Below, one piece after another: positions 14 to 2,250 of a DNA stretch of 64,000 bases (positions within the stretch are counted from its first letter, which is position 1; the number at the start of each line of letters is the position of its first letter). Under the pieces are notes generated by a model that saw only the letters and a program-made list of their open reading frames with translations, ran no database searches and had not been told where the DNA came from. The DNA lies in NCBI RefSeq assembly GCF_014207845.1, contig NZ_JACHLC010000002.1, positions 186,001 to 250,000 of the forward strand. Direction: 5' to 3'. This DNA is from Chryseobacterium shigense (lineage in GTDB: Bacteria > Bacteroidota > Bacteroidia > Flavobacteriales > Weeksellaceae). The position numbers and the translations under genes are program-made.

Positions 14-193
14 ATGAACAATTTAAATGAAAAATTAGCAAAATTTTCAATCGAAAAACTTGAAGAGCGTAAAGAATTTACATTCTACTGCAATCCAGCT
101 CCGTGTGAGCCAAAACCATGTAATCCAAAACCAACATGTGGCGGAACAACTCCAACTGATCCAGGAACAACTAACCCGGGAACATTCAGATAA
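14..193 (+). CDS. Candidate RiPP precursor peptide, 59 aa
   Basis: This 59-codon ORF starts at an ATG 13 bases into the window and is too short for usual ORF cut-offs. The first half (residues 1-24) is charged and leader-like, with the pattern K-L-A-K-F-S-I-E-K-L-E. The second half has four cysteines at residues 26, 31, 36 and 42 separated by Pro-x-Pro units, then Gly-Gly and a Thr/Pro/Gly tail ending T-F-R. A leader plus a short Cys-rich core, directly upstream of a PqqD-like/M50 metallopeptidase gene, is what ribosomally made, modified peptides look like in Bacteroidota. No signal peptide is visible. The product and its modification are unknown; the precursor role is inferred from composition and neighbours. 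It could instead be an unrelated small Cys-rich protein. Confidence 0.6.
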   Translation: MNNLNEKLAKFSIEKLEERKEFTFYCNPAPCEPKPCNPKPTCGGTTPTDPGTTNPGTFR

Positions 194-218
194 TTGGTTT
201 TGACTTTAAGTTAATTAC

Positions 219-246
219 AAAGTACCTGATTACAGTCAGGTACTTT
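219..246 (+). terminator. Strong hairpin between precursor and enzyme genes
   Basis: A perfect 11-bp stem (AAAGTACCTGA / TCAGGTACTTT) with a 6-nt loop runs into T residues. It lies 26 nt after the stop of the small peptide gene and 20 nt before the next start. It is probably a partial terminator that leaves the peptide transcript in excess over the enzyme transcript, a common arrangement for peptide precursors. Confidence 0.7.
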
Positions 247-265
247 TGAATTTAAATAAACAGCT

Positions 266-1078
266 ATGGCAGATACGCAACCTCAGCTATATTTCTTTAG
301 AAATCAAGCTTATTTTTTAAAGGAAAATTTCATTATTAATGATGAAGAGCTTCTTCAAAAGTTTACCACTTCAATAGAGCATCTTTGTTATTTTACTCTT
401 GAAATGGATAAAATTATAGACGGAGATTATAAAGTTAACAGCATTGAGGTTAAGAATTATGACTTTTATTCAGCTGTAAAAAGCCATCAGGAATCGGTAA
501 GAATCATGACGGAAATTTTCCCAAAAGATCATGGATTCTGGGATCATCTTGATGAAAATAATCTTCAATATTACACTACTCTTTCGAGAGAAAAGCATAA
601 TACCCTTATTAAACCGATTCTTACCCTGAAAGAATTTGAGGAATATGCCGTTGCAAAACACGCTCTTGCTTTCATTCCCATTATTGGTCTGAATTATATT
701 TTTTCGTCACGAGGTAACACTGAGAAACTGAAGGAAGTTTACACTTTTATTTTCAAAGGAATACAAATGAATGATGATATAGAAGATTTATCTGCAGATA
801 TTCAAAACGACCAATGGACTTATGTGAGGTCACGTGTAGAAGAGTTTATAAAAGAAAACAATCTTGATAACGAATCCGGTCTCGACAAATTTGAAGAAAG
901 GGTATTTTATGTTTCAGGAATTGCCGAAGAGCTTATAGCCTACAGCAAAGAACAGTTTATCAATGCAAGAAATATAGCCTTAGAAAATGATTATAAGGAG
1001 ATCGTGCGATGGCTTGATGAAACTATTTCTGACCTTAGTAACAATGAAGAGCTTGTTTCAGATCTTGTAAATAATTAA
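266..1078 (+). CDS. Class 1 isoprenoid-synthase-fold protein, 270 aa
   Basis: No signal peptide or membrane segment is obvious and the protein reads as mostly helical. Two Asp-rich motifs stand out: D48-x-x-x-D52 within EMDKIIDGD, and D170-D171-I-E-D174 within NDDIEDLSAD. Their spacing and the flanking helices resemble the two metal-binding motifs of polyprenyl-diphosphate-synthase-like (class 1 isoprenoid) enzymes. Such enzymes bind a prenyl diphosphate through magnesium. The gene sits between a Cys-rich peptide gene and a PqqD/M50 gene whose start is 2 nt after its stop, so it is probably translated with the latter. A role in prenylating the peptide or making its lipid donor is speculation. 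It could also be a catalytically altered scaffold. The fold assignment is by eye and moderate. Confidence 0.55.
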   Translation: MADTQPQLYFFRNQAYFLKENFIINDEELLQKFTTSIEHLCYFTLEMDKIIDGDYKVNSIEVKNYDFYSAVKSHQESVRIMTEIFPKDHGFWDHLDENNLQYYTTLSREKHNTLIKPILTLKEFEEYAVAKHALAFIPIIGLNYIFSSRGNTEKLKEVYTFIFKGIQMNDDIEDLSADIQNDQWTYVRSRVEEFIKENNLDNESGLDKFEERVFYVSGIAEELIAYSKEQFINARNIALENDYKEIVRWLDETISDLSNNEELVSDLVNN

Positions 1079-1080
1079 TT

Positions 1081-2250
1081 ATGTCTTTGATCCGAACAGA
1101 TTATTTTTTATCGCCATATCAAACCGGGAAATGGGTGCTGGAAGTTTCCGGGACACATTTTATCATCAATGATGATACAAAAAAATTAATCGACATTCTT
1201 TCTACATCACAAAATTATAAAGAAGCTGCCACACACTTTAATTCTGATTTTGAAAGCAATGACTTCAGCGAAATAGAGTTCGCGGGTTTTACCGAAAAAG
1301 TTTTCGAAGAAATTCCTATTTTCAATCATTCTGTTACGGAAACAAAAGAGCCGAAAAGCTTTATTAAATTTCAAAAGGAACTCCTAAAACCTTCTGTTGC
1401 CGGAAAAACAGCTTCATTTATCACTTTCCTGTTCAATAAAAAACTGTTCTGGATTACCTTTTCACTGCTTGTTGTACTGCAGGTTATCATAATGATAAAC
1501 ACCCCATTATCATCTTTTACAAACATTTCACCTGTCTGGGTTGTTGTGATCTATACCTCAACCATGTTCCTACATGAGCTGGGCCATATTGCCGCCTGCA
1601 GGAAGTTTACCGGAAAGAACGGGGAAATAGGCTTCGGGATTTATTTTATATTTCCGGTTTTATATTCAAATATTTCCTCTGTATGGCATGCCGATAAGCA
1701 AGAAAGAGTGATTACCAATCTGGCAGGAATTTATATGCAGCTATTATGTATGCTGATTTTATACGGTATTTATTTACTCACCCATGATGCATCTTCGCTT
1801 TATCTGGCCTATTTTATTGCCTGCTATTGCCTTTTACAGGTTTTTCCTTTCATAAGATCTGATGGGTATTGGTTGCTATCCGATCTTACTTCTACGTCCA
1901 ATCTTCTTCAAAAGTCCGAATCCGAGGTTAAACGTTTTATTACAAAACCCTTTAGCTGGCTAAAAGAAAAGAGGGAGAAAAAAGGGTTTCTTTTGGGCTA
2001 TGGCTTTTTCAATTATGCCATTCTGATCTACTTCATTACTACCCAACTTATTTTTAACTGGGAAAAAATTTTATATTTTCCTGTGTATATCATAAACACT
2101 ATTAAGCAGATTTTTACCTTCCAGTTTGATAAAATAACTTTTGATAGCGGATTGATTACTGTTATTATATTCTATATTCTTGTGTTTAATTATGCAAACA
2201 ACTTTATAAAAAACATTTCTGCATCACCGGATAAAAAAAGAGGCCACTAA
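1081..2250 (+). CDS. PqqD-like/M50 membrane zinc metallopeptidase, 389 aa
   Basis: The N-terminal ~90 residues resemble the PqqD-like peptide-recognition domain of RiPP enzymes. The remainder is a multi-pass membrane domain with the zinc motif HELGH at residues 165-169 and the second M50 motif SDGYWLLSD with Asp261 (third metal ligand type). This pairing is typical of M50 peptidases in peptide natural-product loci (the YydH/SkfC type) rather than of RseP; no PDZ domain is seen. It likely binds the leader of the precursor and cleaves at or in the inner membrane, or serves in immunity or export. It is the last gene of the cassette on this strand and converges on the amylase gene. Confidence 0.75.
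   Translation: MSLIRTDYFLSPYQTGKWVLEVSGTHFIINDDTKKLIDILSTSQNYKEAATHFNSDFESNDFSEIEFAGFTEKVFEEIPIFNHSVTETKEPKSFIKFQKELLKPSVAGKTASFITFLFNKKLFWITFSLLVVLQVIIMINTPLSSFTNISPVWVVVIYTSTMFLHELGHIAACRKFTGKNGEIGFGIYFIFPVLYSNISSVWHADKQERVITNLAGIYMQLLCMLILYGIYLLTHDASSLYLAYFIACYCLLQVFPFIRSDGYWLLSDLTSTSNLLQKSESEVKRFITKPFSWLKEKREKKGFLLGYGFFNYAILIYFITTQLIFNWEKILYFPVYIINTIKQIFTFQFDKITFDSGLITVIIFYILVFNYANNFIKNISASPDKKRGH

Follow-up and report, generated by a model that had tools for sequence, protein, structure and literature searches.

A conserved three-gene cassette

We analysed a stretch of 64,000 nucleotides (the window; G000:C2:186001-250000) from a Chryseobacterium-group genome whose near relatives carry the name Chryseobacterium. 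At its left edge, a precursor peptide gene, a gene for a 270-residue protein and a gene for an M50 peptidase stand in series on the + strand, the first two separated by 72 bases and the last two by 2. These are the three adjacent open reading frames (ORFs) of the original prediction, and they lie where it placed them, at 14-193 (59 residues), 266-1078 (270 residues) and 1081-2250 (389 residues). Its view of them as a cassette for a ribosomally synthesized and post-translationally modified peptide (RiPP) also holds, as they combine a conserved leader and variable core with an enzyme assigned to the isoprenoid synthase superfamily and an M50 peptidase. The features are as follows.

14..193, + strand: precursor peptide, 59 residues; ORF whose leader recurs in 18 clade loci and is under purifying selection; leader about residues 1-22 (..FSIEKLEERKEF), core starting at T23 (TFYCNPAPCEPKPCNPKPTCGG...)
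86..88, + strand: codon of Tyr25 (core position 3), the prenyl acceptor predicted from Tyr conservation
89..91, + strand: codon of Cys26 (core position 4), the rival acceptor; Cys here in 19 of 27 clade precursors
266..1078, + strand: stand-alone trans-isoprenyl diphosphate synthase (trans-IDS)-like protein, 270 residues, predicted peptide prenyltransferase of the isoprenoid synthase superfamily; hhalign match to the P domain of ChrPC-like fusions
407..421, + strand: first Asp-rich motif, D48-K-I-I-D52; D48 and D52 invariant and aligned to fusion D54 and D58
764..787, + strand: second Asp-rich motif, Q167-M-N-D170-D-I-E-D174; invariant residues with PalQ-like spacing
1081..2250, + strand: intramembrane M50 metallopeptidase, 389 residues, predicted leader peptidase with a possible N-terminal PqqD-like (RRE) domain; HExxH and DG motifs, M50 matches

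The precursor, the 270-residue protein and the M50 peptidase are a real conserved cassette. A search of 5.8 billion proteins yielded 12 and then 29 homologues of the 270-residue protein, listed without a Pfam domain, and a profile search of genomes from the family found an enzyme match at E <= 0.001 in at least 31 of 320. These alignment searches score the best few candidates per genome (8 at most among the 320), so that the counts are lower bounds. The 31 include 13 strong stand-alone matches in the genus, three stand-alone matches in another genus (G210, G215 and G216, with a broken enzyme in G204 of that same genus) and 13 classed as fusions on frame length or score, of which a few have shortened frames; the weakest match (G290, E 9.6e-4) is doubtful. 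Just two loci were obtained from the collection of named genomes. Gene surroundings drawn from 27 of these genomes, plus one duplicate copy, gave 29 loci, 28 of them distinct (L012 equals L053), and a member of the M50 family was found around the enzyme in every one. The window's clade consists of 18 loci, including the later-added L104. In all 18, the enzyme and M50 genes either overlap or are separated by no more than 27 bases, and the nearest precursor lies no more than 100 bases before the enzyme in 15. Spacing is looser in the fused loci, and gene order differs in L063. The original prediction was to be given up if relatives lacked a conserved precursor next to the other two genes; one is present beside or near them.

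Precursors were gathered with a leader expression or with a leader profile that ends before the core, those of L104 by ORF and profile match. The leader was recovered in the 18 clade loci, giving 27 precursors with 25 distinct cores, and thus a conserved leader ahead of a variable core. Written as degenerate DNA, the leader pattern has 22 sites in 13 of 173 genus genomes and none in the other 160, and the stand-alone enzyme was found in exactly these 13; the reversed pattern, used as a control, had 0 sites throughout. All 55 pairs of 11 leaders from the window's group hold 452 synonymous against 99 non-synonymous codon differences, with 503 of 659 base differences at third positions, the pairs not being independent of one another. 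The mainly synonymous change in the leader, and the occurrence of leader pattern and enzyme in the same 13 of 173 genomes, argue that the cassette is not a product of chance.

Two further loci deserve mention. L064 keeps its precursor and M50 gene beside an enzyme gene broken by stops, and L017 (6615-7872) carries six tandem precursors ahead of one enzyme gene, five of them with near-identical cores.

Kinship of the enzyme

ChrPC-type fusions of a prenyltransferase and a cyclase were reportedly described by Hubrich et al. in 2024. According to the part of the literature available to us, ChrPC draws on C10-C20 donors to prenylate an internal Trp through its P domain, and the attached group is cyclised by its C domain (PMC13290415). 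The 270-residue protein has no credible Pfam or NCBIfam match, and a sequence search of PDB chains with its family returned 0 matches up to E 10. Fusion proteins of this architecture link it to known enzymes. An hhalign comparison of the 29 homologues with 26 fusions gave a probability of 99.3 (E 8.4e-21) over 252 columns, which align with positions 8-261 in the first fusion. The C-terminal domain of squalene-hopene cyclase is recognised in each of the 26 fusions, and polyprenyl synthetase PF00348 (E up to 0.01) in 15. Additionally, the second half of the fusion profile matches solved squalene-hopene cyclases and MstE, and the first half has weak matches to two trans-prenyltransferases (E 0.0065 and 0.45). 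The cyclase domain has no match in the 270-residue protein, and inspection by eye recognised none in neighbouring ORFs.

Both Asp-rich motifs that had been noticed in the 270-residue protein are confirmed, as D48xxxD52 and Q167-M-N-D-D-I-E-D174. D48, D52, Q167, D170, D171, D174 and D178 are invariant across the 29 aligned homologues, and D48 and D52 align to D54 and D58 of the fusions, which are invariant in 26 of 26. Compared with a canonical set of 26 trans-IDSs from Bacteroidota, the fusion P domains reached a probability of 83.5 (a comparison made without shuffle control) and the joint family one of 79.2, with a score of 44.4 where the best of 30 shuffles scored 20.5; the joint-family alignment, like that of the window's family alone, covers 67 columns about the second motif. 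These profile comparisons place the 270-residue protein within the isoprenoid synthase superfamily indirectly, via the fusions. The kinship originally proposed is thereby supported through ChrPC-like proteins; the direct match to trans-IDSs is weak, and it is therefore the fusions that carry the inference of the fold.

We rejected the idea that the protein is a canonical housekeeping prenyl synthase, as two PF00348 trans-IDS genes lie elsewhere in the genome. A class-level search with the fused alignment at E 1e-60, scoring the best 3 candidates per genome, found matches in at least 2 of 395 genomes, one of them through the cyclase half only.

Tyr and Trp in the precursor cores

We consider it probable that the cassette makes a prenylated RiPP, in which the prenyl group would most likely sit on Tyr25 and less likely on Cys26, and from which the M50 peptidase would remove the leader. 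Tyr occupies core position 3 in all 27 clade precursors, encoded by TAC in 15 and TAT in 10 of the 25 checked. Trp never occurs at core position 2 or 3 in the clade, and 21 of the 27 precursors are without it. For the fusion enzymes, 10 loci gave 21 precursors with 17 different cores. Their leader is related to that of the clade, and Trp is present in every one of the 21, in 16 cases at position 2 or 3. Any Trp is found in 10 of 10 fused loci against 5 of 18 clade loci (Fisher p 0.00025), a value uncorrected for kinship and limited by the fact that several fused loci nearly duplicate one another and the clade loci share descent.

The window precursor lacks Trp and has Cys26, Cys31, Cys36 and Cys42 in the motifs C-N-P-A-P-C and C-E-P-K-P-C, which bears out the four Cys and the C-x-P-x-P-C spacing first noticed. 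It had been suggested that Cys is the modified residue, and S-prenylation of Cys26, perhaps with further Cys of the repeat, overlaps with the reading we prefer but is in our estimate rather improbable. A thiol is the classical prenyl acceptor of eukaryotes, as the available part of PMC10853753 describes; at least one Cys is present in 26 of 27 clade precursors, at core position 4 and so directly after the Tyr in 19, and the remote G1189 precursors discussed below likewise read Tyr-Cys. The Tyr at position 3, however, is found in 27 of 27, one of the six tandem G003 precursors is free of Cys, and position 4 is Thr in the four L018-type loci. The fusion relatives carry an aromatic Trp at or near the site, and Trp is the residue on which ChrPC acts in the accessible portion of PMC13290415. 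The suggestion of a modified Cys is therefore less well supported than that of a modified Tyr25.

Some of the fused loci are of interest in themselves. L066-L070 represent one fused prenyltransferase-cyclase locus, 99.8-100% identical over pieces that sum to about 5.6-7.1 kb in three genera, which indicates recent transfer; the L070 copy has a split frame in its enzyme gene. At L063 (7578-13178), four Gly-rich precursors of 80-104 residues with a core GSW.. lie beside the fused enzyme.

Remote loci and the enzyme tree

Remote loci (G987, G1189 and four fusions) were examined once the idea of a Tyr/Trp division had been formed. G987, from another family of the order, has the arrangement precursor-enzyme-M50 and a core TFYYSS, with Tyr at position 3. 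A search across the phylum (395 genomes, best 6 candidates per genome) gave at least seven genomes with an enzyme match, five of them new. Four of the new loci are fusions, and all their precursors contain Trp (SAWDQ, AEWCEF, AEAAPWICVG and KPWICG). One of these, G1027, has a weak cyclase match (27.5 bits against a cut-off of 26.1) and no DxDD motif, and no M50 gene was recognised nearby by eye. G1189 encodes a stand-alone enzyme of 316 residues with two precursors, whose cores SCYCAINLC and SSYCLVNYC have Tyr at position 3 and no Trp; they were taken from the ORF list, the leader profile not having reported them.

A tree of 63 rows, built without the remote loci, places stand-alone and fused enzymes on two sides of one branch with support of 100/100. 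With the remote loci included (31 rows), G1189 falls among the Trp-type enzymes and a single Tyr clade is rejected (p-AU 0.00098, the P value of the approximately unbiased test). Thus, the position of G1189 suggests that Tyr arose twice.

In the remote fused loci L123, L124 and L125, a radical SAM protein (Pfam PF04055) is encoded near the precursor, so that further modifications are likely there.

Several observations weigh against Tyr prenylation by this enzyme. The clade precursors share descent, and their 27 Tyr residues are not 27 independent observations. Six of them do contain Trp (a C-terminal GGGW in four loci, and KPW in both precursors of L055), about 3 kb separate the precursor from the enzyme downstream of it in three of the 18 clade loci (L057, L058 and L064), and no precursor was found in the fused locus L069. 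The window's family alone, compared with the canonical trans-IDSs, has a probability of 4.8, although its score of 26.3 exceeds the 16.8 reached by the best of 30 shuffles. The branch of G1189 is long, and its placement is unsure. On two Hymenobacter plasmids, L126 (NZ_CP040937.1) and L127 (NZ_CP053909.1), a stand-alone enzyme with an M50 neighbour goes with a Trp precursor; small annotated genes lie downstream and were read by eye as FQVEALDQRLETAWSMG and FQAEALAPRTEIWSKD, with cores AWSMG.. and WSKD... Additionally, the enzyme retains Q167, equivalent to a Gln to which reading of the Trp indole NH is ascribed, even though the window precursor has no Trp, and the Tyr might be conserved for binding or cleavage and not as an acceptor.

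We rejected the rule that absence of the cyclase half means Tyr, because the two Hymenobacter enzymes pair with Trp precursors; standing alone does not by itself mean Tyr. The enzyme, the M50 peptidase and the Trp precursor of these plasmids are all annotated as hypothetical.

The retention of Q167 in a clade whose precursors mostly lack Trp could also suit a terpene synthase-like enzyme that makes or binds a free isoprenoid. The Tyr would then be part of the leader or protease site, and the peptide would be unmodified, or modified by an enzyme encoded elsewhere. Prenyltransferase activity is itself a prediction, which leaves this account some room, but we regard it as quite unlikely, given that the leader pattern and the enzyme keep company in the same 13 of 173 genomes, that the Asp and Gln positions of the enzyme equal those of PalQ and the fusion P domains, and that the genome has its two PF00348 trans-IDS genes elsewhere. 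Prenylation of Tyr25 remains the reading that we prefer.

The M50 peptidase

The 389-residue protein contains the motif H165-E-L-G-H169 together with D261-G262, and H165, E166, G168, H169, D261 and G262 are invariant in 22 aligned relatives. M50 is its best Pfam family (E 2.3e-5), at 24.3 bits and so under the cut-off of 27.2, and it is matched at E up to 1 by 21 of the 22. The best NCBIfam matches are to daptide_HExxH (NF041824; 96.4 bits, below the cut-off of 300) and YydH/LiaK (NF058609; 67.2 bits, below the cut-off of 225). The original description of a PqqD-M50 peptidase is borne out for the M50 part by these motifs, and is weaker for the PqqD part. Pfam PqqD has no match in the 22 M50 relatives. 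Profile comparison of the M50 N-terminal stretch (94 residues in the window protein) with 30 Bacteroidota PqqD domains gave a probability of 77 for the 22 together, with a score of 29.4 against 17.1 for the best of 30 shuffles. For the seven M50s of fused loci the probability was 90 and the score 35.6 (14.5 for the best of 30 shuffles), and for the 15 M50s of the window's clade the probability was 12.6, the last without shuffle control. These profiles suggest that an RRE (PqqD-like) domain is likely in the M50 family; in the window's protein it is unproven.

Proposed route to the product

We infer the donor, the acceptor atom, the order of steps, the cleavage site and the location and role of the product. 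The 59-residue peptide would be produced with its leader, residues 1 to about 22. The 270-residue enzyme would hold an allylic diphosphate, C10-C20 by analogy, through metal bound at both Asp motifs, and would ionise this donor. The prenyl cation could then pass to a nucleophile directly behind the leader, most likely Tyr25 and less likely Cys26. As there is no cyclase half of the kind that ChrPC-type fusions have, we expect the prenyl group to remain linear. The leader would be cut off by the M50 membrane peptidase, possibly once the peptidase's N-terminal domain has bound it, and the Cys/Pro/Gly-rich prenylated tail might then be released or kept at the membrane.

Relation to known systems

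Peptide prenylation of this kind is already known, since the fusion architecture has been reported for ChrPC. In the available part of the source, ComQ, PalQ and the P domain of ChrPC are grouped as trans-IDS-like prenyltransferases, and the characterised trans-IDS-like peptide prenyltransferases all target Trp, a conserved Gln being thought a key reason (PMC13290415). Thus, the novelty first claimed for the cassette applies to the variant and not to its kind. By description, the fusions found here share the prenyltransferase-cyclase architecture of ChrPC; they are homologous to the 270-residue family, and those examined have a related leader, the same M50 family (in the loci surveyed) and a precursor beside a trans-IDS-like domain. 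In contrast, the window enzyme has no cyclase half, and its precursor core starts with Tyr (and Cys) instead of Trp.

In having a stand-alone enzyme of the isoprenoid synthase superfamily and a precursor peptide, the cassette resembles ComQ/ComX of Bacillus and PalQ/PalX of Paenibacillus. PalQ has D89/D93 and Q197/D200/D204, with Q197 modelled to hold the Trp indole NH, as far as the available portion of PMC10853753 describes it. Compared by motif description, the window enzyme has the same Asp pairs and Gln, with identical spacing within each motif (Q-x-x-D-x-x-x-D). ComQ and PalQ, however, act on Trp, and the parts of the sources at hand describe no M50 partner for them. The peptidase is closest to those of the daptides and of the epipeptides (YydH/LiaK), which are named RiPP maturation peptidases, but both scores are under cut-off and no other daptide or epipeptide gene was recognised in the cassette. 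A prenyl group on Tyr of a ribosomal peptide, as predicted here, would be shared with the cyanobactin enzymes LynF and LimF. Unlike the window enzyme, these have an unrelated alpha-beta-beta-alpha fold and are leader-independent, going by the accessible parts of PMC11002830 and PMC12715784.

We found no Tyr-type trans-IDS-like member in the open-access library searched, and the ChrPC paper itself could describe one; the Tyr-paired stand-alone variant looks new. It is about an even question whether these are the first enzymes of the isoprenoid synthase superfamily to prenylate a ribosomal peptide on Tyr (or Cys) and not Trp, with a switch from Trp to Tyr at one core position, twice by the tree and each time in an enzyme that lacks the cyclase half; the product would be a lipidated Cys/Pro-rich peptide of Bacteroidota. 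The clade keeps the Gln yet pairs with precursors that mostly lack Trp and, in all 27 collected, have Tyr at one position, which makes the choice of acceptor within this fold directly testable through Trp and Tyr homologues with related leaders. If true, the finding would offer a new lipidation tool and a family of lipidated Bacteroidota peptides.

Neighbouring genes

Radical SAM, YcaO and transporter genes, which the original prediction had proposed to look for leftward, were not seen in the 10 kb upstream (ORF translations read by eye, with no family search), and reading of ORF translations likewise showed no exporter beside the cassette. Directly outside the left end of the window and upstream of the precursor, in the same direction, lie genes for three secreted-looking paralogues, each about 249-264 residues long, with gaps of 12-28 bases (L001 17623-19987, which is genome C2:183623-185987). 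None of the three has a Pfam domain above cut-off.

Such a trio stands upstream in the same direction in 8 distinct clade loci and, together with the Pro/Cys/Gly-rich cores, it would fit a Cys-rich surface peptide whose four Cys are engaged in disulfides, thioethers or metal binding, prenylation being secondary or lost. We think this very unlikely, because the number of Cys ranges from 0 to 5 across clade precursors and the enzyme does not look decaying, its Asp and Gln motifs being invariant in 29 homologues. Returning to the prenylated product, the paralogues next to the eight loci may, as a guess, mark a possible site of its action. As they accompany only 8 distinct loci, the core cassette consists of the precursor, the enzyme and the M50 peptidase.

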